A stretch of 64,000 bases of DNA, taken from NCBI GenBank assembly GCA_018902385.1, contig JABSSW010000001.1, positions 186,001 to 250,000 on the forward strand. The letters are read 5' to 3'. The translations under genes and the position numbers were made by a program. Below, one piece after another: positions 46,541 to 63,383 of the stretch (positions are counted from its first letter, which is position 1; the number at the start of each line of letters is the position of its first letter). The DNA comes from Physcia stellaris (Eukaryota > Ascomycota > Lecanoromycetes > Caliciales > Physciaceae). A model generated the notes under the pieces. That model had not been told where the DNA came from and did no database searches. It was given only the letters and a program-made list of their open reading frames with translations.

Positions 46541-48205
46541 TCACTTCGCCAGCGCAACAACCTCCTTAATCTCCTCCCTCCACCCAGCGCCCCCATTCGC
46601 ATCGCTCTTAAAGAAGCACCCCGTCTCCGCCAACATGGGAAACGCCTGCGCAAAGCTCGGTCCCAGGCTCCAATTATCCAGATCCCTGAGATGCCGCTCA
46701 AACACGGGATTCATAGCCATCTCGCCCTCCTCGCCGGCAATGAGCGTGTCCTGCGCTTCGTACGGCCAATTCAGGGATAGGGTGATGGTGTAGGGGACGA
46801 AGAAGGCCTCGAAGGGGATGTCCGGGTGCAGGTAGACCATCTTGTCGCGCATGCGCGGCCAGGGGATGTTGTCGATCCAGGCCGGGTGCGGGGTCACGTG
46901 CTGCGACGCGAGCGGGACGATCCAGTCCGGGAGGCGCTCGTAGTTTTCCGGCGTGGGGCAGATCTGCCAGCGCATGGTCAGGAACATGATGTACAGCACC
47001 GCGATCTGCTCGGGCAGGTTCTTGATGTCCGGGAAGGTTTTGATGATGTCCGTGTAGACTTTCGAGAACGGGTGCGCGAAGTGCGCGCGCTCTGGGGTTT
47101 GCAGGGCGGAGAAGGAGGGGTAGGCTGGGCCGATGAGGTCGTGGGCGCTGAGGCCGTCGGCGGCGAGTTGGCGCCTTTCGCGGAGCAGGTCGAGGAGGAT
47201 GATGTCGAGGGGGCAGGTTGGGGCGCAATGTCGGAGAGGGTTGTTGTAAGCGCGGATCGAGGAGGAAAAGTCGGCTGGGGTCTTACCGTTTTTGGTTGGT
47301 TGGGAGGTGTGAATGGGGGTTGTTGCTGGGTGTGGATAGCTTGGGGTCACTGGCGTGTGATGTCGTCCATCGTGAGCCTGTCGGCCGTCAAGGATGAAGC
47401 CTACGTCTAGCTTCTCGTGGGCCGTCCGATTATCGAGGGCCTGTGCGATGTTGGCTCGTTGCCGGTCTATAGCATAGTTTGTAACTGTGGTCGGTGTCGC
47501 AAAGCCTGAGGCATGCGTCATTGGTGGCGTGGGTTGAAGGGCTTGAGGTGAGGCGCCGTAGGTAGATGTGCTAGAAGCGCTTCGGAGTGAAGGCGTATCT
47601 GGCACCGCTGGATGGGGTGCAAGTGCTGGCATGCTTGTAACGCTGTTGGGAGGGAGCGTTGTCCTAGGATTGCAATCCAGTCGCAACCCTGGCGTATCGC
47701 GCTGGCCGGGAGCAAGTTCGACTGCAGCGAAACTTGTTAGAAAGGAGTCTAAGGATATTCAATGTCCAGAAAGAGAAATTGAGAACGTACAAACACCAGA
47801 GGTACCATTTCCGCTTAACAGTGGCTGTAGGATGTTCAATACTTGGTTCAGCTTCCGCTTGATATCCTCGTTCTCGGCCTCGACCAGCTCTTTCTGGCGT
47901 ATAACATGTTGAAGGTCTTGGTATGGCTGCTGGGAGGTCAATTCAAGAATCTTCCTCTCCAACGCCTCAATTTGCCCTTTGGTCCGCTCACGGATAGCTC
48001 GCTGAGCTTCGCGGTCATTTGCACGTTTCTTGGCCAGTTGCTCTGGAGTAAGGTTGGCTACCCCTCTAGATCCTGTAGTGGAAGCTCTCCGTTTCTTATT
48101 AGCAGGGCCGTTGGTGGTAGAGTTAGTGGGCGATGTTCCATGATTCGTCGGTGTCGGGCCAGGGGCGGGGAGTTTGGAGTTGGACGAGGTTGACTGGGTG
48201 TCCAT
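46541..48205 (-). CDS. bZIP transcription factor with DUF3425, 531 aa
   Basis: Two exons on the minus strand, 47791-48205 and 46541-47721, in phase across a 69-nt intron. The basic region is in KKRANDREAQRAIRERTK (Asn and Arg correctly placed), followed directly by a leucine-zipper heptad stretch (IEALERKILELTSQQ and onward to VLNILQPLL). The C-terminal half is the fungal DUF3425 domain, including CPLDIILLDLLRERR, FLTMRWQICPTPENYERLPDW and HVTPHPAWIDNIPWPRMRD. Proteins of this architecture are nuclear regulators of stress, conidiation or secondary metabolism. It is the only transcription factor in the window, about 2 kb from the cluster at 50.4-61.4 kb, so it is a candidate regulator; that link is inference. 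The ORF is open upstream to 48364. Confidence 0.88.
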
Positions 48206-48712
48206 TCGAAGTGCTGGCTTACTGACTCGCTGTCTGCCGACGGGAGCATAGGTACGTCGCTTGATGCACAAGTACGAGTCCAATTGGGTGACTCGGTCAA
48301 GGCCACTCCGAATCTTGATGTCGCTTGAGTCATGTCTGATGCGCTCGGAACCGCTTGACCTCAAAGTCGGGACGCGCTAGCATTGAAGATGGTGCTACCC
48401 CTTTATTCTTCTCACTCCCCAAAATCCAAGTACCGTGTCTATGCACAAGTCATGCTATTCCTACGGCATTCGATGCATCATTCAGTACGACATCTACCTA
48501 GGACGATGGTGACGACTATCTACAACTGCTTGTTCATCATTGCGATCCACATACCCATCATTCGCGTATTGCTTTTCTGTAATATGACAGCTGCACCTAC
48601 CCAGGGTGGCCTGACTGATTGATTGATCATTGGTCGTTGTCCATGAACTCCTCGCTATGCATCAAAAAGCACTAATATCGTAGATTCGCGGTGCGTATTT
48701 CGTCCGTCATGT
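48206..48712. promoter_or_regulatory. Promoter of the bZIP gene, 3' flank of RIB1
   Basis: About 510 bp between tandem minus-strand genes. A repetitive CAT-rich stretch, nothing specific. Confidence 0.5.
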
Positions 48713-50408: not shown

Positions 50409-52168
50409 CTACTCGCACATCTCCAAAATCCTCAACACATCCCCTACCTCCTTCAACCTCACCGGATTCGTCTTACACCAACGATCCTTCAAACTGCCCT
50501 TTGCAAGCTCCTCCCACTTCTCCCTGCCAACCCCCACCTCCCTCAACGACCGCGGCATGCCCAGTTCGCGGAAAATTGCATCCAGTAAAGCGCCCAGATC
50601 GCAGCCCGAGCGTTTCCAGTGCGCGAAATCGAGGCTTTTTAAGTGGGGATCCTGAAGTAGGAAATTTGAATCTGGGGTGGAGTTTGGGTTCGAGGTCAAA
50701 TTTGACTTTGATTTCAGAGCTGGCTGTGGAAGTGGATTTGAATCTGAACCGGGAACCGGGTCTAAATCCCAGGGTCCGAGTGATGAGGCTTTCGCGGCAG
50801 AGTCCTCACCGACAGGATCCGAAGCACAATCCGCAAAGCCTCCCAAAACCGCCTCCACAACCAGCGCCTGAGCCGCCGCGTTAACCTCTTTATTGAAGCG
50901 ACAGACGGCCGGCAGCAGCACGCAACTGGTCTCCCCGTGGCCGACTCCCAGCGGGCCCAGCTGATGCCCGATGCCGTGGCTGGCGCCCATGCTCACGCCG
51001 CCGAGCGGGGCTTTGATGGCTTCGAGTGCGCCGAGCTGGCAGCTCAGTCTCTGCTCTCTTTGCTCTTTCTCCTTTTCCTCCTCATCCTTCGCCCATTCGT
51101 TACCATCGATTCTCCCGTCCCCATCCCCACTCCCTTTCCTAGATCCCCCACCCTCCCCCGCTCTCTTCGCCCCCAATAACCCACTCACCAACCTCCTCAA
51201 TCCCCTAACCGCGCTCCCAGTCCCAATCTCAGAAGCGTTCGCGGAGCAAATCGCCTCAACGCAATGATCGACTGCTCTCACGCCGGTGCTGAGCCACACT
51301 CGCAGGGGCGTGGTGGCAGCGAGATCGGGGTCCAGGATGACGAGACGGGGGCCGAGGGACGGGTCCTGGAAGGAGTGTTTGTGGTGCGTGCTATCGTCGG
51401 TCGCCCCCGCGATGGGAGTGTACTCGCCCGCTGAGAGCGTGGTTGGGATGCTGATTATTGGGATGGTGGCCGCGTGCCGGTGGGTGGGCGGATTCGGGGA
51501 GTCGAAGGGGAGGGTAGAGAGGGTTGTGGGGGTGAAGGTTGAGTTGGCGATGGCCTGGGTGCGGTTAGTAGGGGGGCTGCTTTGGCGGGCTTGGTCTTCT
51601 AAGGACTGAGGTGGCGAATGGAGGAGAACTTGGGGAGGGAAGGGGGGTTTTATGGTGAGTGGTAGGCTTTTGGTTTGTGTCGAGTTGTTTTTTTTTGGAA
51701 GACTTACGAACACGACCACCTTGGCAGCATCCGTCAGACTACCTCCTCCAAGCGTGACCAGACAATTGGCGTTCGTATCCCTGACTTCCTGCGCGATCTT
51801 GATGATATCGGAATAGAAAGTATGAGGTTTCACACCGCGCCAGATTCCAACCACGGTGTCTTCTCCCAGCAGTCCGTCGATGGCTGCGTGCCCCAGCCGT
51901 CCGTCGATGGCTACGTGCAAGCGGGCCAGGTCATCCGTATTCTCACTCAGGGACTTGGATACCAGTATATAGACCCGAGTGGCCCGAAACGTTTCGGCGA
52001 TGTGTTTAGCGCAGGCCTGCGGGAAGGGTAGGCCGTACGAGACGTAGGGGGAGGGGTGGGGGATGTTCCGGGTGGGAAGGCGGCAAAATAGGTTTCTTGG
52101 GGGGTGGTGCTCTCTATTGTGTTCCCGTTTATGCCGTTGGGGCTAATTATTGTCGATAGAGACTCCAC
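50409..52168 (-). CDS. Iron-containing alcohol dehydrogenase / maleylacetate-reductase-like, about 535 aa
   Basis: Two exons on the minus strand: 51708-52168 (needing one added base) and 50409-51554. The 153-nt intron is in frame and stop-free, with clear GTAAGT and CCCAG ends. Landmarks are VSYGLPFPQACAKHIAETF, the cofactor segment VTLGGGSLTDAAKV, and the metal-binding region GASHGIGHQLGPLGVGHGE. Starting at the Met at 52168, the frame is lost at a run of five C (52047-52051). One more C makes PPPYVSYGLPF continuous and brings exon 1 to 462 nt. Two low-complexity insertions are unusual: a Glu/Lys/Gly-rich one and a Ser/Pro/Asn one near the C-terminus. The family reduces maleylacetate or aldehydes with NAD(P)H. 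It may act in the neighbouring pathway. Confidence 0.85.
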
Positions 52169-54138
52169 TGGTGCCGAAGAGTGGACTTGCCCATTCGCTG
52201 CATTGCTTTTTGCCGGTCGGCTCCGCGGGTTGGTGCAAATTTGACGTGCTTTGCTTCTGGGCTTTTATTTGCTTGTGGGCTCAGGAGCCGTTCTTGACCG
52301 TGGGCTACCAGCCTGAGGAACTTTGAACTATCTCCGTTCACTGGAGCTGGGATTGACCCGGAATCTATGCCATCTGTAAGATCCTCTGTTCGGACAGCGT
52401 TACTTTCGTTACTAGTATCGGTTGGCGCTTGGACTTCGCCTTCACGTATTGCGTTTGCGGACGAAAGATCATCACTGGTCTCACGATGGCGGCTGACGGC
52501 TTCGTGTACCGATGGCTGACTGAATGGTTCTCGAATGTGGTTGAGGGCGGTATCTTCCCTTAGATCATTCAAGACGCCTTCTCTTGGCTGTGTACTGCCA
52601 TTGCGCGCCACTTCATCGCATTGCAGACCAGCCTTGTCGGCTCCTCCGGCAAGTTTGTCAACAAAATCGCTCACTCTCAACTGGAAAAAGTTTTCGACCC
52701 CCATATCAATGAAATGCTGGATCTCCCTCGACTGCTCTGGCTGAAACCGGCTTCGAAGATTGACTTCAAGCTTACGACCAACATACTCGGGGGTATCATT
52801 TCGCCAAGGATGACCGGTAGGGTATTCTACCACAACTTCCTCAAGCCGCTCATGGTGAAACAATGTTACTGATAGACCATTCGCGGCGCTTCTTTTGGTG
52901 TCCGAGTGATAGTCAGCGGTAAACTGCTTGTCCTCAACCATTTCAATTTTCTGGCGTAAGTTGTCGACACGGGGATCGGATGCCCAAGGGGAATTATCAT
53001 CATAGTCTTCGGACGTGATCATTGAACCTTTCAGTAGGACTACTGAGATCATGTATTGCATACAGTGATCGCGATCAGCTGCATTCGTGAGTTTCCCCTG
53101 CTTGTTGATAATGATCATCGCAGGTTCCTGAGTCCGCACGAGGATGTGGCTGATAGCCTCATCGAGCCCGAGGTCATAGTGACGATCTTGTAAAGTCTTT
53201 GATAAAATCAAGGCTGCTTCAACTGCCGAAGCAGCGTGTCCTTCCGCGGGATGTATCTTGAAAAACACGTTCTCAATCACCCAGCTACCAAACGGCTTGG
53301 GCAGTTCGAAGTGTCTACCACCCATGATAGTAGCATAGAAGCCCCATTTCGGATCCGTGAGAGCGGTCGGTGCACCAGGCTGCCCGCTCTTCGCCATAAG
53401 GGCTAGATGTACGGCCCGCATGCATGCATCTCCTGCAGCCCAGCCTTTACGCGGGCCGGAGTTGGGGGACTGTCGGAAAGATCGCAGCGGACCAGCATCG
53501 ATGAATGCATGTGACAATGCTGCGAGCGTCTGTTGCTCTGTACAGCCAATCATATGAGCGATCACTGCTGTGGACGCCACGCGGACAAGTATTGTATGAT
53601 CAATGCCAGACTTGTTGAACGCATTTCGGATCTGGAAACAGCCTTGGATTTCGTAGGCTTTGATGATGGCTTCAAGTACCACTCTCATCGAGACGCTTGG
53701 AGTGCCACTCGTGCGGGAGGTACGATCAAGCCAGTCGGATACAGCAAGGATGGCGCCAATGTTATCTTCTCATCAAAATCAGCATCTATTGCCTTAAGAA
53801 GACCACATCTACCGACCAGACGGATGATCCCATTCAGCGCCTGGCAATGCATCTTTATGGTCCAAATAGCGAATCAAAGATCCGAGATCAAATGCGCCTT
53901 TGACGGGGTCTACCTGAAATGTTGTCCCTGGGATTTTGAAGCCGTTGGGTACAGTTGTTCCCTCAACCACAGGTCCAATGATTGCGCGGCTCTCTGGATT
54001 CTTCTCCAGGGTCTCCAGTGCACAACCGACAGCATCGAAGAGGGCGACTTTGGCGCGCTCCCAGGCGTATTCGCTTGAGATGGTATAACCAAAGACATAA
54101 TCTTTAACATCGACAAGTATCTGATCGTATTGAGACAT
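52147..54138 (-). CDS. 2-methylcitrate-dehydratase-like enzyme (PrpD/MmgE family), 646 aa
   Basis: Two exons on the minus strand, 53817-54138 and 52147-53765, in phase across a 51-nt intron. Conserved family segments are LGSLIRYLDHKDAL, SDNIGAILAVSDW, FNKSGIDHTILVRVAS, RQSPNSGPRKGWAAGDACMR and ELPKPFGSWVIENVFFKIHP. The core ends near residue 482 (SDFVDKLAGG). It is followed by about 164 residues of polar low-complexity sequence, ending SLYRQ, that relatives lack. The last 22 bp overlap the start of the downstream dehydrogenase gene. The family dehydrates 2-methylcitrate to methylaconitate; alkylcitrate dehydratases of secondary pathways are close relatives. Next to a citrate-synthase-like gene, the latter role is attractive. 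No peroxisomal signal is visible. Confidence 0.88.
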
Positions 54139-55110
54139 TCTGACCTCGATCGGTTGTTGCAAGCTTGGCCGCCCGCCTGAAGTGTTCTGGACTTGGTTTT
54201 CTTTATTATGACAAAGCTTCCTGGTGAGAGCTCCGAGGTATTCTTGATATAGTCTTTCAATACCGAGAGTCGGCACAATTTTCAAAGTGCATGAACGGTG
54301 AGCCTACACCATGACAAAGACCAGTAAACAGCCAACGACTTCCACATCTTGACTATCTCCCAACTGACATAGCAGATCAGCCTTGACATCATCCCCATAG
54401 GTTGGGGGAATCACGTTCCCACACCTCCCCAACGAGAAATGACGAACGGATATCCAACAACCGAGGGCGACCGACACGCGATCTCAACAAGACTGGTTGA
54501 AGGCCATCGCACTCCCATGCACAGTTGTGGCACTCTTTTTACAGGTATAGATCCAGGTGAGGCTAGGCCCGAGGGAAACGCGCTAGGGATACGATCCATC
54601 AGGGGATGGATGATCGAAAGCAGGAGTCCGAGACCTTCCTTCGGTGTCGAGTGGATGAGCTCATCGGGCATATGATAAACGGAACGTGGAGGCTCGAAGC
54701 CGGCGATTCCGTAGATATGGCTTAGCAGGGGTAGAGTCAGATCTGGTACTAAAAGCTTGACCTACGCAGGCTTTCGGGCTATCAAGACTCATCTTCGCGA
54801 AAAGTTGAAGACTTCCTGTAAGTGGCAAAAGGAAGTTCGCTCTAGGGCTGTACGAGGACCACCGTACGAGATGGCCAGTGCTTGTAGAATCCCAGATAAT
54901 ATAGCTGAAATATTTTCACTAGCTATCGAAGCGTCCACTCCCGTTCCCATGCATGACTTACGCCATCGCTCAAACGAATTCGCGCACCTACGTCCACTCT
55001 ACAGATATATCGAGTCATTGCGGCTGCTTTTCGAAAATTGGAAACGATCCCCACCCTAGCGTACGAGCGGCCAACGGCACAAATATCTTATGCTTAGGAT
55101 CGAGGTATTC
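54139..55110. promoter_or_regulatory. Promoter of the PrpD gene, 3' flank of the synthase
   Basis: About 970 bp. ORFs of about 86-100 codons on both strands have no recognisable domain. Confidence 0.5.
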
Positions 55111-56598
55111 TCAATCTTTAGCGTCAAGATTCCCAGTGTAAAGCTGCTGCGGCCTCCAAAGTCGAGCCGGCTGGTTCATAGCTTCACGCCAATGTGCCAT
55201 AACACCGGGGCACCGTGAGACCATAGTCAGTGGTAGGACGATCTCTGCTGGAAAACCTCTGCAAACAGGAAAAAGGGTCAGCTTTGCTTCTTCGAGAATT
55301 CAGAGATTGGCCTTACAGCGCCATGTAAACAAAGCTCCCGTAGAGGTCGGCATTAGCTTTCAATTGACGAGAAGTGAAGTATTTATCCTGCGAAGCTATC
55401 CGATCGATTTCGAGGGCAACGCTGAGGAAGTTGCTCTGCTCCGCTCTTTTATCGGTAAACTCATCAAGCAGTCTAATGTTTCCGCTTAGGGTCAGCATGT
55501 GTCGTGGTACAGAGAGGTCACAGTATAGCCTACTTACTCTCGAATGTAGGTACTTCTAGGATCGGTAGTCTTGTAGATCCTATGGCCATATCCAAATAAT
55601 CTGAACTTTTTCGCTTTAACATCTTCGATGAGCTTCGGTACATTTGCTGGATCTCCTACACGTTCTATCGTTTTGAAAGCTGTTTCAATTGCACCTCCAT
55701 GCAATGGCCCATAAGCCGCAGAAATCGAGGCGATGGAGCAGCTGAAGGGGTCCGCAAGTGTAGAAGCGACATGCAAAAATGCGGCGGTAGAATTAGTCAA
55801 CTCGTGATCCGCGTAAAGAACCCACAATCGCTCCAGGCAATCGACATGTCTCGGATCAGGCTTGCCGTTTTCATCCACAAAACTCATCATGTTGAGCATA
55901 TTTTCGATGTATGATCCATTTGGGTCTGGGGAAGTGAAGCTACGTTCCGTGAGCCGACAGTATGACATCGCAACCACGGCGCCTAGAGCCGAAAGCACAC
56001 GAACGATCTGCGTGTCGACCTTTTCGGAATGACCTTGATAAAGGTTCTTGCCTTCAAAAGCAGGTATGACGGTGGGGTCGGCACCGCACCAGGCTGACAG
56101 GCCGGCAGTCACCATTGTCAATAGAGGTGTGTCCGGCGGGAATGATCGTAGAACATCCTGAACAATGTTGGGGGCAACCATTTCTGTAGCGAGCTGCTTC
56201 TTGTAGTCATGCCTCTCAACTGGTGAAGGGAGGTGTCCCCAGATAAGCAGAAAGGTAACATCCTCGAATTGTTTTTTCCCCACCAGATCGGATATTGAGT
56301 GATCTCTGTAATGAATCGCACCCTTTATGCCGTCTACATGTGTGATTTTTGACTCCATTACGGCGGTATTCTGGAAGCCTTGGTCAAGTACTCGAAGTCC
56401 AGCCTGATCAGAGGTTCTGATTTGCATGAAACTCGTCGCATCGACGACATTATCATGAATTGGGAGCTCATACTGGCGTGAGGTCCGCGAGTCCGTGATA
56501 TGTAGGTATCCCGTGGGCTTTGGCCCCTTTGAGACAAAAAACCTTTGAAAACGAAGAATGAGTCGGTCGATCAAAGAAAGGAGCCCGTTGAAGAGCAT
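55111..56598 (-). CDS. Citrate-synthase-like enzyme (methylcitrate / alkylcitrate synthase type), 454 aa
   Basis: Three exons on the minus strand: 55538-56598, 55317-55472 and 55111-55258. All are in phase (1365 nt). Catalytic signatures are LYADHELTNSTAAF with its His (near residue 265), SAAYGPLHGGA (His near 300) and FGYGHRIYK (His near 339), plus VALEIDRIA in exon 2. The N-terminal segment LLSLIDRLILRFQRFF is an amphipathic, Arg-containing helix that could target mitochondria. The enzyme condenses an acyl-CoA with oxaloacetate. Acceptor length cannot be read from the motifs: propionyl-CoA would give methylcitrate, longer chains alkylcitrates. The pairing with the PrpD gene argues for a dedicated pathway. 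An upstream in-frame start (56793) seems less likely. Confidence 0.9.
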
Positions 56599-57650
56599 GG
56601 TGATATCCGAACCTGAATGAAGAAATAAATGGGCGAGGTGATGGCTGGCATCTTCAGCTACAAAGCCACCACAGGCTCGACTATAAATCACTCGAGGCTC
56701 AAGGAACCTAGGAGCAAATGGAACGTGCCCGGAATAGCTCGCGTAGCCAGCATCAAGACGTCGCCCATTTCGGTCTGTGACAATGATTCGCAACGATCAG
56801 CTCATGGCCTGCTGACAATCTCTGATGGAGGGTCATCTCCCCTCAAACTATGCTTAACGAACAGTATTGGGCTCCTGTAGCCGACTGATCTGTCGTCAAG
56901 ATAGTCATCGTTTCTTCCTCCTCGCGTGAAGCTGCTGGCAGATGGCGCTCCATCGTGAAGGCATAACGACCCATCGACAGATTGGGAGGGTTTTCTCTCC
57001 ACCATATTTGATTGCTTGATGACGACAAGCTTGAATAGACTCGGATTCGCTCGGCTTAGGGATGTTCGCCCTATTGTTGTCGTAGGTAAATTGACAGAAA
57101 ACCACAACAATTGGTGATTGAGGTGTTGCTCGTCCGAACGGAGGGTGTGGACCTTACCTCGTAGTATTTATCTTTACTGATCTACCTTATTAGCGCCCCA
57201 ATAGAAATTGTCGGGACGAATGTCCTTCGACTCCTTCCTGCACTCGAAACTGAGATCATGCAGCATACTAAACGACCGCTAGTGAGCCGTAAGACTCTCT
57301 AGGCTCTAGCACTGTTTAGTCTTGTGCTAGAGTTCTGACTAGCACACAGTCTAGTACCACTAGTAGTGCTTGATATCACTAGATTCATTACACTGATTTC
57401 GACCAATAGATACGGTTAGTTTAATATAGTCACGCATAAATTTTATGAAAGTGTAGGGGTAAACAGACCGTCGATTTCGCCCCTTGCAAGCGCAATTTAG
57501 CTTCCTACATGTCGAAACTCCCCCATTATCTGAGATCGCCATCATTACGAAGTGTCTCAACTGGAAATGTCTATGATGCCAATGGCTTAATAGCCGCATG
57601 GGACACTAATGTTTGTGGAGGGAGGCATTATGTCAGATTGGAGAGTCTCG
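56599..57650. promoter_or_regulatory. Promoter of the synthase, 3' flank of the P450
   Basis: About 1.05 kb. Includes a short stretch near 57290-57370 with several repeats of CTAG (TCTAG, CTAGC, ACTAG types). Nothing else recognised. Confidence 0.5.
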
Positions 57651-59339
57651 TCACAACCACTCCGCCTCTCTGATCCGAACAGCCAGATCTGCGGGTCTAT
57701 GGACGATATTGCCAATACCCTTGACCTCTCCATCCGGGTCCTCCAGCTCCATGATGAAACTACCGACCAGCGCCGCAACCGCGCATTTTAGCTCCGATCT
57801 GGCGAAGCCCTGACCGATGCAAGCCTTTGGCCCGTCCAAGAAGGTTAGCATGTAGTTCCTATCGGCTTGAGCTTTCCGTTCGCCTAGCCATCGATCTGGA
57901 TTGAAAGCGGCGGCGTCCGGTCCCCAGACATCTGGCGCCGTGTTAACTGATTGAGGGCAGACTACAATACCCGTACCTTTGGGTATGTATTGACCCAGTA
58001 ACGTCGTGGGTCGGACCGCTTCTTTTATGGTAATGGGCGCTGGTGGGCGTACGCGAAGACTTTCGTTACAAACAGCATTCAAATAAGGCAAGCTGTCGAT
58101 AGCTGCAGCTGTGATAGGTGTATCGGAGTTTCGAGTCGGGAGGTTCGCATGGATCTCTTCTCGCAGACGTGTCTGCACAGCTGGATCCTGACAAAGAAAC
58201 AAGATGGTCCAGCTCAACGCCGCCATTGATGTTCCGTGACCAGCAGCGACGAGCACCACAGTCTGATCGATGAGTTCCGAGGTTGAAAACGCATTAGAGC
58301 GTACAGCGGCAGAGATGACATCTAGATAATCATTCTCTTTGGTCTCGAGTGTTGAGGCCTTCTCATCCAGTAGCTTTCGTGAAGTCTCCCTGACATGCTT
58401 CGAAGCATTTCTGGTCTCACGGTGTTCCCAGATGGGCCAATGATCTGCCACCCATCCAGGCAACAGGGAGTAAACTGCAAAAAGGTATTTTCTGGACGTC
58501 CCGGTTGTATCGAAGGCAAATAAGGTCCAAGCACGTGTCAATGGGTTCGTTGGATCCTTCAGCGCGTTAAACTCTTGACCTATAGCAGCTGATCCGATGA
58601 GATCCAATGCCAGACGTCGCGACCACTCCCCAAAGTCTATCACCATACTAGGAAGACCGTCGCCATTGCCTTGGACCGAGTTTGCCCTGAGCTTAGAAAG
58701 TAGAATATCGACCATTTCACAAGACGTGTCCCAGAAGATAGGATACATGTCTCGGATGTGACGGAAGCTAAAAGCCGGGGTGAGGAGCTTCCGTTGTAGC
58801 TATTTCTAGTCAATACAATTCTCTGATTGCGGTGAGAGTACAAATTTGATGACTTACTTTATGCGCATCGCCTTCCGCTGTGAGAAGTCCGTTTCCTACT
58901 TTTCTCCTTAAGGGACCAAATAGAGAAAGTGGCTTGATGAAATCATATGCCCTCTGGTTTAACAGCTCACGAAGCCCATCGTGAGAACAGACAATCAAAT
59001 GTTCCTGATTGAATCCACCCAGGTATCGTATCATACCATCGTTAGGTATCGTAGATGACCAGTGTTCGACTAGCTCTTTGAGACGACCTGGAGTTGACAC
59101 ATATCCCTGGTTGCCCATGAAAAGGCTTGCATCCTGTAGCAGACGGTTAAGAAGCGTGGAGGAAGCAGCCTGGCAGACATCAAGTCACTTACTGGTGGAT
59201 GAGGCAGATGTTTGAGAGGACTCAAGAAATGTGGATAAAGCACCACTCTCCATGCGGCTATGGCAAACAAACAGCCCAAACCAACCTGGATCATGGTGGA
59301 AGTATTCAAAATCGACAATATGACGCTATGTAAAGCCAT
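57651..59339 (-). CDS. Cytochrome P450 monooxygenase, 523 aa
   Basis: Three exons on the minus strand: 59193-59339, 58858-59133 and 57651-58799. All phases are 0. An N-terminal membrane anchor (IQVGLGCLFAIAAWRVVLY) targets it to the ER. Landmarks are the I-helix AAGHGTS (about 326-332), the ExxR motif ESLR (387-390), the PERF-like FNPDRW, and the heme loop FLDGPKACIG (about 461-470, Cys near 468). These suggest a microsomal class II enzyme of the CYP4-like clan. It sits between the citrate-synthase-like gene and the divergent exporter, so it probably oxidises the pathway product. Substrate unknown. Confidence 0.92.
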
Positions 59340-59846
59340 CTTTGCGGATGAAATTAACAGTACTATGCCGTCAATAGCTTGAAGACCCTGTTATGAGAGC
59401 TGTGGGAAGGGACATGATAAGGTAATTAAAAAGCGTCGATGAGCAAGACCCCTTTCACAGGCTTATCAAGAAGGCTCGTTGTCTGACGACATGGATGGGC
59501 CCACACTTCGGCTCAAGTTCTTCTGAGCTCGGGTTTGGTCGGGGCTGTCGATCGCATGACATCTGGTCTAATTGAACTGCGTGAGTATTGATATGATATC
59601 ACTAGCGTCTTTTACATCCCATCCTACCTCTAGACTTTTTCCAAATCACGTAGCGGATTGCCCCGGCTGCTCCACTTCGTTTCCAAATCGATCAAACAGA
59701 AACTCTTGGTGGATATGACGTAGTAGAAGCAAAAGTGAAAGAAGCCGAACGAGCTTGGAATTCCAGCTAGAACAGTAGAGAAGTTAAGGGAGTTCGATAC
59801 TGACGAGACACATATTGCAGTCAGATCCCGTTCAGTGTTCGATAGC
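59340..59846. promoter_or_regulatory. Bidirectional promoter of P450 and MFS exporter
   Basis: 507 bp between divergent start codons. This arrangement commonly co-regulates an oxidase and its exporter in fungal clusters. I see no defined binding site. Confidence 0.55.
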
Positions 59847-61439
59847 ATGAGCGCTCATCCCCGAACCACCACAAGCGGCCCTCAGGACTTGCCCAATCCT
59901 CGGGATTGGCCCAAGTGGAAGAAGTGGATGGTTGTCTCAATTGTCAGCGCTCAAGCGACCGTCTCACCAGCTTCCTCCACCTTTCTCGCTGTAGGAGATC
60001 TTGCTGTAGTCGCCGACTTTCAAACCACGGATGCCTACCTACCTTCGCTGCCTGTAGCCTTCTTCGTCCTGGGTCTCGGAACGGGACCCCTCTATCTCGC
60101 CCCCTGCTCCGAGCTGTACGGCCGCCGCAAAGTCTATCTCGCCTCCGCCGTACTGTTTACTGCTCTTAATGCCGGCTCCGCTCTTTCCCCAAACATGACC
60201 TGTCTGGTGTTACTGCGCTTTTTCTGTGGCTTGGCTGGCTCGGCAGGACCAGGTCTTGGGGCGGGGACTGTGCGGGACGTCTTTGCACCAAGTGAGAGAA
60301 GTAAAGCGCAAGCAATATACGGGCTGGGACCGCAAGGTGGCCCCGTAATTGGTGGCGTGATTGGTGGGGCTCTTCTTAAAGCCCTTGGATGGCGTTGGTT
60401 GTTGTGGATAGTGACTATCACGTCGGGAATGATCACGATGGTCACCGCCATCTGGCTGCCGGAAACTTACGGGCCTTATCTGCTGAAAAAGAAGCTGGCA
60501 TTGCAACGGAAGGAAGAAAGAAACGTTGCCAATGAACCAAAAACAGAAGGTACCGGCATGGAATCTAGACATGTGTTCCTCAAAGCCATGACAAGACCTC
60601 TTCGCATTCTTGTCACCGCACCAATTTGTACGGTCCCGAGCCTATATATGTCTCTGTAAGTTTGCAGCTGACAATACCCTTGCTTGGGGCAATACCGTAG
60701 AGCTATCGACTGACCAATCACTTCTGTTAGAGTTACTGGGATCTATTTCATCCAACTCACCACCCTTCCCCTCCTCTTCGGTCCGGCCAATGCCTACGGT
60801 CTTTTCTCCTACAACTGGAACGAGACATCGATGGGTCTTTCCTACCTCAGTGGCGGGGTAGGCCTCGTGCTTGCCACTGCTATTATGGGACTCCTGTCTG
60901 GGCGCATAGATAGATATATGATGACCAGATACGGTCAGGGACAGTCTCGGCCGGAGTTTCGTCTCCCATTACTGCAAGCAGGGATGTTTGTGAACATTGC
61001 AGGATTAATAATCCACGGCTGGACGGCGCAAGCGCGATCGCACTGGATTTTGCCCCTACTGGGCCAGGCCGTCTTTTCCACTGGCAGTCAAATGGCGTAC
61101 GTATCAATCCAAGTTTACCTGACTGATGTTTTTGAAGCATATGCGGCAAGTGCACTGGCGGGTGCGGCGGTGGCGAGAGGATTAGTCGGCTGCGTTTTGA
61201 CCGTGTTTGGCTTCAAACTCTATGTGAAATTAGGCTACGGATGGTACGTTCATCAATCTGCGCTCACATGTCCAGGGCCTTTTACAGCTAGAGCAAAACT
61301 TTCTCGGAATCCTAACAGATGCTGACTCTCTTCAAGGGGCAGCACGTTGCTGGCGCTTCTGTGCGCAGTGTCATTGCCGTTACCAGGCTTGCTGTACTTT
61401 TACGGACCAAAGTTAAGAGAGAGGGAGGTACGAATGTAA
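59847..61439 (+). CDS. MFS transporter, DHA1 drug:H+ antiporter type, 474 aa
   Basis: Three exons: 59847-60655, 60731-61243 and 61337-61439, in phase (1425 nt). Twelve hydrophobic segments are consistent with the family. Signatures are DWPKWKKW before helix 1, the motif-A loop SELYGRRKVYLASAVLF, and motif C (GLGPQGGPVIGGVIGGAL) in helix 5, typical of exporters. A central loop is Lys/Glu-rich. Divergent from the P450, it is likely the efflux pump of this cluster; that is context. The start used is the ATG at 59847. Confidence 0.92.
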
Positions 61440-61788: not shown

Positions 61789-63014
61789 TCATCCATCTTC
61801 TTCATCCGACGGTGCATCAGGGAGGTTCTCAGGCCGCCAGAGGCACTTGGTCAAATGCGCAGTATTTCCCTCTTTCCTTATCTTCTGATAATCAGCCAAA
61901 CACCCCCAGCAGTACTGATATTCACAGATATCGCCTGAGAATATGTCAATTTCAGAATTGATCATTTAGAGTGGGCTGGAAGAAATAGTTGCAAACTTAC
62001 AAATGATGTGATCGCACCCAGACTCCTTTTTCCCGGGAGACTGGCACTTGGGACAGATTTTGCATTCTTCCTTAATGAAGGCTTCCGATGCCTCGATTTG
62101 CGCGTCTCTCGCCTCACGAGAGGCGTTGATCTTCTCGCAGGTTGAGCCGGAGTGCCAAGGCATGTCACATTTGACGCAAGTCCGGCGGCTGCATGCAACA
62201 CAGATAATGTAACTGTCCTCTTCGGTGTCACAAAATTGGCCTGAAGAGCATCCTTCGTGGCGGCATTGTTGAAATTGACTGCTAGCATCCAGACAAGCTT
62301 GCAGTGATAGGCGATCATACCTATTCATGTTATTATGAATTATCAAGTGCAAGGAGGAAGAGATGATTCATTGTCTTTGACTGACTTTTCAAAGGTAGCA
62401 CTATCAGCGAATTCCTTCACGTCGAAGAACTCTAAGCGCTCAGGGCATACAGGACAATCGATCTGGTCCCAGATTTTCTGGTCCATCTGCTGTGCAAGGG
62501 AATTTGCCAGGCATGCGGAGCAAACGTTTGCAGCGTGGTCACAATTCGAGGTTGTCGCACGCTGTGGGAAGCTGGAGCACGGTTGGGTTTCGTAGCAGAT
62601 CTGACACAACCTTTCATCTCCAGCGTCGACATCCAGAGTGGTCGGTAAAGGTCCTACGTCTTTATGGTCTCTTTCTGCGTCCGAATCTCTGATCAAGAAC
62701 CCTGCGAGACCGCTTCCGGAGTCTTGATCCAAGGCGATAGGCACGATTTCAACATCTTCTTCATCAATGTTTGGAGATGAGATTGTTGGCAGGTCTTCTT
62801 CGATCTCATTTTCGAGTGCTATTATACTCTCTGACCTAGCACGTAGGCCGGGATTTGAGGATGCTGAAAGTGACTCCATAGCCCTGTCATTTGGTATATC
62901 AAGTGTTTGGGGGGTTTCAACGCCGTTGGGGTTACTGGAGGTACTGGTGATATTCTCTGGGTCAGACTGCTGGGCTTCTTCTTTCTGTTCCATGGCGTTG
63001 CTGGCTAAAGTCAT
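61789..63014 (-). CDS. RBR (RING-IBR-RING) E3 ubiquitin ligase, about 364 aa
   Basis: Three exons on the minus strand: 62386-63014, 62001-62320 and 61789-61934, all in phase. The N-terminal part is acidic and Ser-rich. RING1 follows (CQICYETQPCS, then CDHAANVCSACL, ending CPVC). The IBR contains CRHEGCSSGQFC and CVACSRRTCVKCDMPWH. RING2 reads CPKCQSPGKKESGCDHIIC, then CEYQYCWGC. The putative catalytic Cys of RING2, in the ESGCDHIIC segment, is present. RBR ligases form a thioester with ubiquitin before transfer. Target unknown. An additional 5' exon upstream of 63014 is possible. Confidence 0.88.
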
Positions 63015-63383
63015 GTTAAACTGACCGGGATGTAGGGATCGATTCAAGTAGATGAGTAGGTGATAGCTAGGCTCTTAACATTGGAAGTTCGGTGTTGAGC
63101 GTGAGATACTCACCGTTGATGACCTAGAGTCAGAAAGATGTTCAGAGACTCCTTATCAAAGCCTAGATGGGCCACAATATCACTTGTCTGGCTTCTAAAA
63201 TCAACACTGACCGATGTTCAGTCAAATGTTGTGTTGTCGATTCTGACAGTTGCACATTCAAGATAGACCTAACACATCAGACTGTGATGCTGCTTTATGT
63301 CAGCTCCTTAGACACTTGCCGATCATAACACTGAAGCATGTTGGGAAGGTTGTAGCCATTACGACTGCGATCCTAGAGCATTT
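63015..63383. other. Intergenic
   Basis: About 370 bp between tandem minus-strand genes. It holds the RBR promoter and possible 5' exon; nothing else recognised. Confidence 0.45.

Follow-up and report, generated by a model that had tools for sequence, protein, structure and literature searches.

Background

Several fungal gene clusters combine a citrate-synthase-like enzyme with a 2-methylcitrate-dehydratase-like enzyme. In the available text of the source papers, this pair is found in the akc cluster of Aspergillus niger and in the sporothriolide and oryzine clusters, and the akc region also contains a transporter (PMC7338620, PMC8403587). The A. niger cluster yields mainly hexylaconitic acids, and no iron-type dehydrogenase (Fe-ADH) is among the genes listed there (PMC7338620). 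The maleidride clusters, those of byssochlamic acid and its kin, are described as having an alkylcitrate synthase and an alkylcitrate dehydratase at their core (PMC8851701).

The locus analysed here has the same enzyme pair and also a transporter, but it differs in two respects from what the available text of these papers describes. The alkylcitrate clusters carry their own chain makers, dedicated FAS genes in akc, sporothriolide and oryzine and an hrPKS in the maleidride clusters, whereas our locus has neither a FAS nor a PKS linked to it. In addition, it contains an Fe-ADH of the maleylacetate-reductase type (MAR), whereas no Fe-ADH is among the genes described for akc, sporothriolide or oryzine. 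The hydrolase, dimerising cyclase and PEBP-like core genes reported for maleidrides are not among its five genes, and a maleidride cluster was rejected because a PKS is not linked. From sequence comparisons, we read the locus as a putative small alkylcitrate-type secondary-metabolite cluster that would receive its acyl-CoA from outside and would include a reduction by the MAR enzyme if this is expressed, a reading that we hold to be about evenly balanced between right and wrong.

Organization of the locus

The window, that is, the whole 64-kb stretch of DNA analysed, corresponds to C1:186001-250000 in a genome of 44 Mb in 147 contigs. Its genes point to a fungus, probably a filamentous ascomycete. 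Searches of the genome for group I introns (26 of 1208 candidates scored) and for a 5.8S pattern gave no match. Six-frame reading and Pfam searches found all five genes of the compact cluster proposed by the initial annotation, each in its proposed place and above the Pfam cut-offs. From left to right, the MAR-type Fe-ADH, the PrpD-type dehydratase (PrpD), the citrate synthase (CS) and the P450 genes lie on the minus strand and are followed by a divergent MFS gene on the plus strand. The spliced models of the last four were drawn by eye from GT..AG introns:

50409..52142, minus strand, maleylacetate-reductase-type (MAR) Fe-ADH open reading frame (ORF), intron 51707-51555
52147..54138, minus strand, putative PrpD-type (alkyl)citrate dehydratase, exons 54138-53817 and 53765-52147, 646 aa
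55111..56598, minus strand, alkylcitrate-synthase-like citrate synthase (CS), exons 56598-55538, 55472-55317 and 55258-55111, 454 aa
57651..59339, minus strand, cytochrome P450, exons 59339-59193, 59133-58858 and 58799-57651, 523 aa
59847..61439, plus strand, MFS transporter, exons 59847-60655, 60731-61243 and 61337-61439, 474 aa

The Pfam scores were 71.6 bits (Fe-ADH) and 57.1 bits (ADH_Fe_C) for MAR, 150.8 and 71.9 bits (MmgE_PrpD_N, on two exons) and 136.7 bits (MmgE_PrpD_C) for PrpD, 245.3 bits (Citrate_synt) for CS, 207 bits (p450) for the P450 and 95.3 bits (MFS_1) for the MFS protein. The CS, PrpD, P450 and MFS models are open over their full length, and TpA/ApT in the five genes is 0.51-0.86, which we take to be not RIP-like. 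The expected number of CS/PrpD/Fe-ADH trios this tight by chance is 1.4e-6 (with 2 CS) to 2.9e-6 (with 4 CS). The estimate takes 2 to 4 CS genes, 3 PrpD genes including one fragment, and 3 Fe-ADH genes, and all of these counts are lower bounds. A fifth CS-family match, on C22 (27.1 bits, cut-off 27), presumably an ATP-citrate lyase, is omitted from this estimate. A cluster joining CS, PrpD and Fe-ADH was not found in a literature search that most subscription papers lay outside.

The P450 and MFS genes diverge across a common promoter region of 507 bp. Promoter words in common (ten 7-mers against 7.22 expected, and one 8-mer against 0.5) gave no motif beyond chance. The family matches of these two proteins give no substrate. 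To the left, Pfam identified a GTP cyclohydrolase II gene and then a DUF3425 gene (46541-47758), which is a possible cluster regulator, with the GTP cyclohydrolase II gene intervening. A basic-zipper-like stretch was seen by eye with the DUF3425 gene (46541-48376), 2 kb past the cluster edge, and the adjoining 47762-48376 has no Pfam match. On the right, the neighbouring ORF shows, by eye, RING-like motifs rich in cysteine, and its part at 62346-63074 has no Pfam match.

Other copies in the genome

Other CS, PrpD and isocitrate-lyase-family (ICL) genes were found on C5, C3 and C1. C5 carries an mcsA-type CS at 391-392 kb, an ICL-family gene at 396-398 kb and an intact PrpD gene at 347 kb, and a CIT1-type gene, represented by a fragment in the CS tree, lies on C1 at 1547-1548 kb. 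Judging from sequence features and neighbourhood, we take the C5 CS to be mcsA, the C5 ICL-family gene to be the methylisocitrate lyase and the C1 gene to be CIT1. At least 11 ICL-family matches are distributed over C3, C5, C49 and C18, and none is with the cluster. By the initial annotation, its reading would fail if the synthase and PrpD genes were the sole copies in the genome and grouped with primary enzymes; neither is the case, as there are other copies on C5, C3 and C1, and the window CS and PrpD stand apart from them.

Elsewhere, a broken PrpD-family fragment, IRG1-like by eye, was seen at C65:158677-159003 (L053 3678-4004), 92 kb from a further CS gene on C65. A stretch of 22-27% GC beside it, from L053:4501 on, looks transposon-derived.

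The citrate synthase groups apart from the presumed mcsA and CIT1

In a tree of 31 rows, for which 25 of the 27 loci were used (all except L168 and L169), the window CS has the C65 CS as its sister (100/100), and this pair lies in a set that also contains bacterial type-I and plant peroxisomal-type CS (97/91), 'type I' being a label coined in this analysis. The presumed mcsA and CIT1 of the same genome fall in a separate group with one bacterial row (100/100). Support for placing the pair directly next to the plant enzymes is weak (81/44). The eukaryotic CS model TIGR01793 scores 44.2 bits on the window CS against a cut-off of 619.75, and none of its 21 NCBIfam matches reaches the cut-off.

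The window CS keeps His265, His300, His339, Arg348, Asp396, Arg421 and Arg441, which we take to be the catalytic or oxaloacetate residues. At the 52 columns where at least 23 of 24 CS sequences from bacteria and plants agree (24 of the 27 bacterial and PDB rows, all except L165, L166 and L167), the window CS differs at 17 and the C65 CS at 18. At the 119 columns invariant in the ten type-I rows, the corresponding numbers are 53 and 50. These changes could also stem from relaxed constraint. The C65 CS has lost the oxaloacetate His, the counterpart of window His265.

The available text of two papers bears on this placement. One alkylcitrate synthase was modelled on the CS of Acetobacter aceti (PMC9890510), and in a published tree the alkylcitrate synthases (ACSs) are nearer to bacterial than to fungal methylcitrate synthases (PMC8851701); the position of the window CS agrees with both. 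The published ACSs lie near bacterial methylcitrate synthases, whereas the window CS groups with type I in our tree, which was built without ACS references, and the CS genes near bacterial prpD fall in a second bacterial group, apart from the window CS. We regard the window CS as probably alkylcitrate-synthase-like and, on indirect grounds, as a candidate member of the ACS clade.

The N-terminal start of the CS model is a guess, and an ORF upstream of that start, at 56802-57167, contains a Met and might represent an additional first exon. The C65 CS, at L052 3661-5221 (C65:65.7-67.2 kb; also L059), adjoins an MFS gene. About 4.5-7.5 kb away from it are ORFs showing an AMP-binding C-terminal domain (PF23562) and, by eye, a resemblance to thiolases.

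The dehydratase is PrpD-related and diverged

All four PDB matches of the window PrpD (E up to 0.001) carry the name 2-methylcitrate dehydratase or PrpD, with 473 bits to 1szq, and the protein passes TIGR02330 (525.3 against 458 bits) and narrowly misses NF006943 (565.2 against 575). The PDB matches together with TIGR02330 support that the enzyme is PrpD-related and not of the citrate dehydratase/IRG1 type. On the itaconate option of the initial annotation, the matches are to 2-methylcitrate dehydratases and not to a cis-aconitate decarboxylase.

The C5 copy shares 43.5% identity with the window PrpD over 471 columns. At 149 columns that are at least 97% invariant in bacteria (the reference being the best 80 of at least 528 confirmed relatives), the window PrpD differs at 34 and the C5 copy at 6. 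Eight of the 34 changes are in residues 91-104, around Asp93 and adjoining His105; the search patterns for the relatives partly covered these residues with letters taken from both queries, and any bias from this would be towards window-like sequences. The candidate catalytic residues Asp93, His105 and His164 are kept, and we read the two histidines as the putative equivalents of IRG1 His103 and His159, two residues named in the available text of PMC7347537. The altered columns fit a changed substrate, and they also fit relaxed constraint.

Residues 482-646 (about 52644-52150) form an extra tail of 165 aa past the conserved domain, and the chance of 165 stop-free codons is about 0.001. The tail is of low complexity yet coding-like in codon scores, and the C5 paralogue is without it. 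Near the bacterial PrpD loci, an Fe-ADH was present in 0 of 80 and a CS in 60 of 80.

The MAR-type reading frame

The motif TGVRAVDH of the MAR ORF has an Arg at the position of the metal-ligand Asp of most Fe-ADHs. In the available text of PMC5125639, this Asp is replaced by Asn or Arg in the maleylacetate reductase subfamily (cd08177). Alignments placed Arg at the same position in 9ph0 MAR1, Asn in the MAR 3hl0 and Asp in the methanol dehydrogenase 8zrl. The top PDB match of the ORF is also 9ph0 MAR1 (76 bits), and none of its 12 NCBIfam matches reaches the cut-off. Both the Arg and the best PDB match bear out the maleylacetate-reductase-type dehydrogenase proposed by the initial annotation. 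At least three Fe-ADH genes are present in the genome.

Catalytic motifs are present in the ORF, and its codon scores are coding-like over much of its length, failing at about 51275-51230, below about 50555 and at about 51680, the last inside the intron. This intron (51707-51555) is 153 bases long, its 5' site is canonical and it contains a match to the branch site. The frame is without a start codon, the first Met being only at residue 385. A beta-strand-like stretch, which we take to be typical of the N-terminus of fungal MAR relatives, sits in another frame just upstream of the ORF, and the frame may switch within a C-rich tract near 52050-52070; the frame problem would be either an assembly error or a damaged gene. 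Two long hydrophilic inserts relative to its relatives are apparent by eye in the translation (50409-52142).

The first conserved MAR residues are about 100 bases from the PrpD stop, and a PrpD-MAR fusion was considered and stayed unproven. The 14 best of 31 candidate introns are all without a branch-site match. Their top score is 4, compared with 4.5 to 7.5 in five introns from neighbouring genes, and their lengths are 199-388 bases, compared with 51-65; the other 17 score 2 or less. With no start codon in the ORF and no convincing intron linking it to an exon upstream, the pathway may lack the reduction step.

No FAS or PKS is linked to the locus

The initial annotation had seen no FAS or PKS within the 64 kb, and this holds and extends further along C1. 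Among the matches listed, C1 has no KS match from 11.8 kb to 659.7 kb; the nearest one on the left, a fragment of 150 bases and 25 bits at 11.7 kb, is 225 kb away, and the nearest one on the right, a gene at 659.7 kb, is 412 kb away. The ORF lists contain no frame above 664 aa in the 10 kb to the left and the 30 kb to the right of the window, where Pfam was applied to five ORFs of the right flank. FAS, PKS and CoA ligase are all absent from the five cluster genes. Genome-wide, there are at least 57 KS matches and at least one FAS-beta match, on C29 at 251 kb, and a KS match 7 kb from the latter falls within an open frame of 1686 aa that is taken for FAS-alpha. The genome profile searches score the best candidates, and the counts are therefore lower bounds.

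Proposed pathway and alternatives

Inferred from the enzyme families, the CS-like enzyme would condense an acyl-CoA with oxaloacetate to an alkylcitrate, which the PrpD-like enzyme would dehydrate to an alkylaconitate. The MAR-type Fe-ADH, if expressed, may then reduce the C=C bond to give an alkyltricarballylate, the P450 would hydroxylate either the chain or the acid head, and the product would presumably be exported by the MFS protein. The acyl-CoA would come from outside the cluster, from primary fatty acid metabolism or from an unlinked PKS. An alkylcitrate-derived locus had been one option of the initial annotation, and it is supported by the CS and PrpD genes, both of them additional, divergent copies that stand apart from the genome's remaining CS and PrpD genes. 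The MAR frame, which has no start codon, speaks against it.

A two-enzyme alkylcitrate/alkylaconitate pathway with a P450 and an exporter, in which MAR is unrelated or decayed and the double bond is kept (a product of alkylaconitic or maleic anhydride type), is possible, though we think it rather unlikely. Such a pathway would suit the MAR ORF as found, which seems to need a frame switch, and, in the available text of the two papers, fungal MAR enzymes serve also in aromatic catabolism (PMC5125639) and the hexylaconitic acid cluster of A. niger is listed without an Fe-ADH (PMC7338620). However, the coding-like scores over much of the ORF, the intron with its canonical 5' site and branch-site match, the catalytic motifs, the start of conserved MAR residues so near the PrpD stop and the small number of Fe-ADH genes found in the genome (at least three) all speak against this alternative. 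An overflow of cytosolic citrate or aconitate, in which CS acts on acetyl-CoA, PrpD forms aconitate and a simple tricarboxylic acid is exported through the MFS protein, seems quite improbable. It agrees with the lack of a linked chain-making gene, and in the available text of PMC4965889 engineered A. niger made more itaconate when citB, a putative cytosolic CS from a secondary-metabolite pathway, was overexpressed; but the P450 would find little substrate, and citrate or methylcitrate would seem not to require the strongly altered PrpD columns round the candidate active-site residues.

The initial annotation had also offered a propionate detoxification unit. A second methylcitrate-cycle unit of this kind was rejected and is very improbable, because a methylcitrate-type set exists on C5, the five genes include no lyase or CoA synthetase by Pfam, the CS is far from mcsA, and the PrpD, despite its scores with TIGR02330 and NF006943, has left the invariant pattern. 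That the cluster is decaying and silent, without a present product, is likewise very improbable: the missing MAR start codon and, elsewhere, the lost His of the C65 CS and the broken PrpD-family fragment would fit decay, but the four fully open gene models and the base composition of the five genes do not.

Comparison with known systems

Returning to the alkylcitrate-type cluster with a reduction step, its MAR enzyme can be compared with FUM7 of fumonisin biosynthesis. In the available text of PMC5125639, FUM7 is a protein of the MAR subfamily suggested to reduce an alkene intermediate, and FUM7 deletion mutants produce alkene-bearing analogues. The likeness to the window MAR is one of family, and FUM7 belongs to a PKS cluster for which the available text names no CS or PrpD.

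The fungal methylcitrate cycle (mcsA, mcdA, mclA) uses the same two types of reaction, but its genes are read on C5 and the cluster copies are diverged from them. Norcaperatic, norrangiformic and agaricic acids of lichens and mushrooms have long-chain alkylcitrate or alkyltricarballylate skeletons, and no gene cluster for these or for free alkyltricarballylic acids was found in our literature search. A further and unlikely idea is that CS, PrpD and MAR make up a portable module that forms free alkyltricarballylates from primary acyl-CoA, would be a chain-maker-free branch of the alkylcitrate family and is a possible basis of norrangiformic-type lichen acids. If the proposed pathway is true, the locus would show that chains from another source can receive a citrate-like head group, and gene sets of this kind would easily be overlooked by mining for FAS or PKS core genes. 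It would also offer a candidate route to free alkyltricarballylic acids, and we infer that its enzyme set could make the skeletons of norcaperatic, norrangiformic and agaricic acids from primary acyl-CoA.
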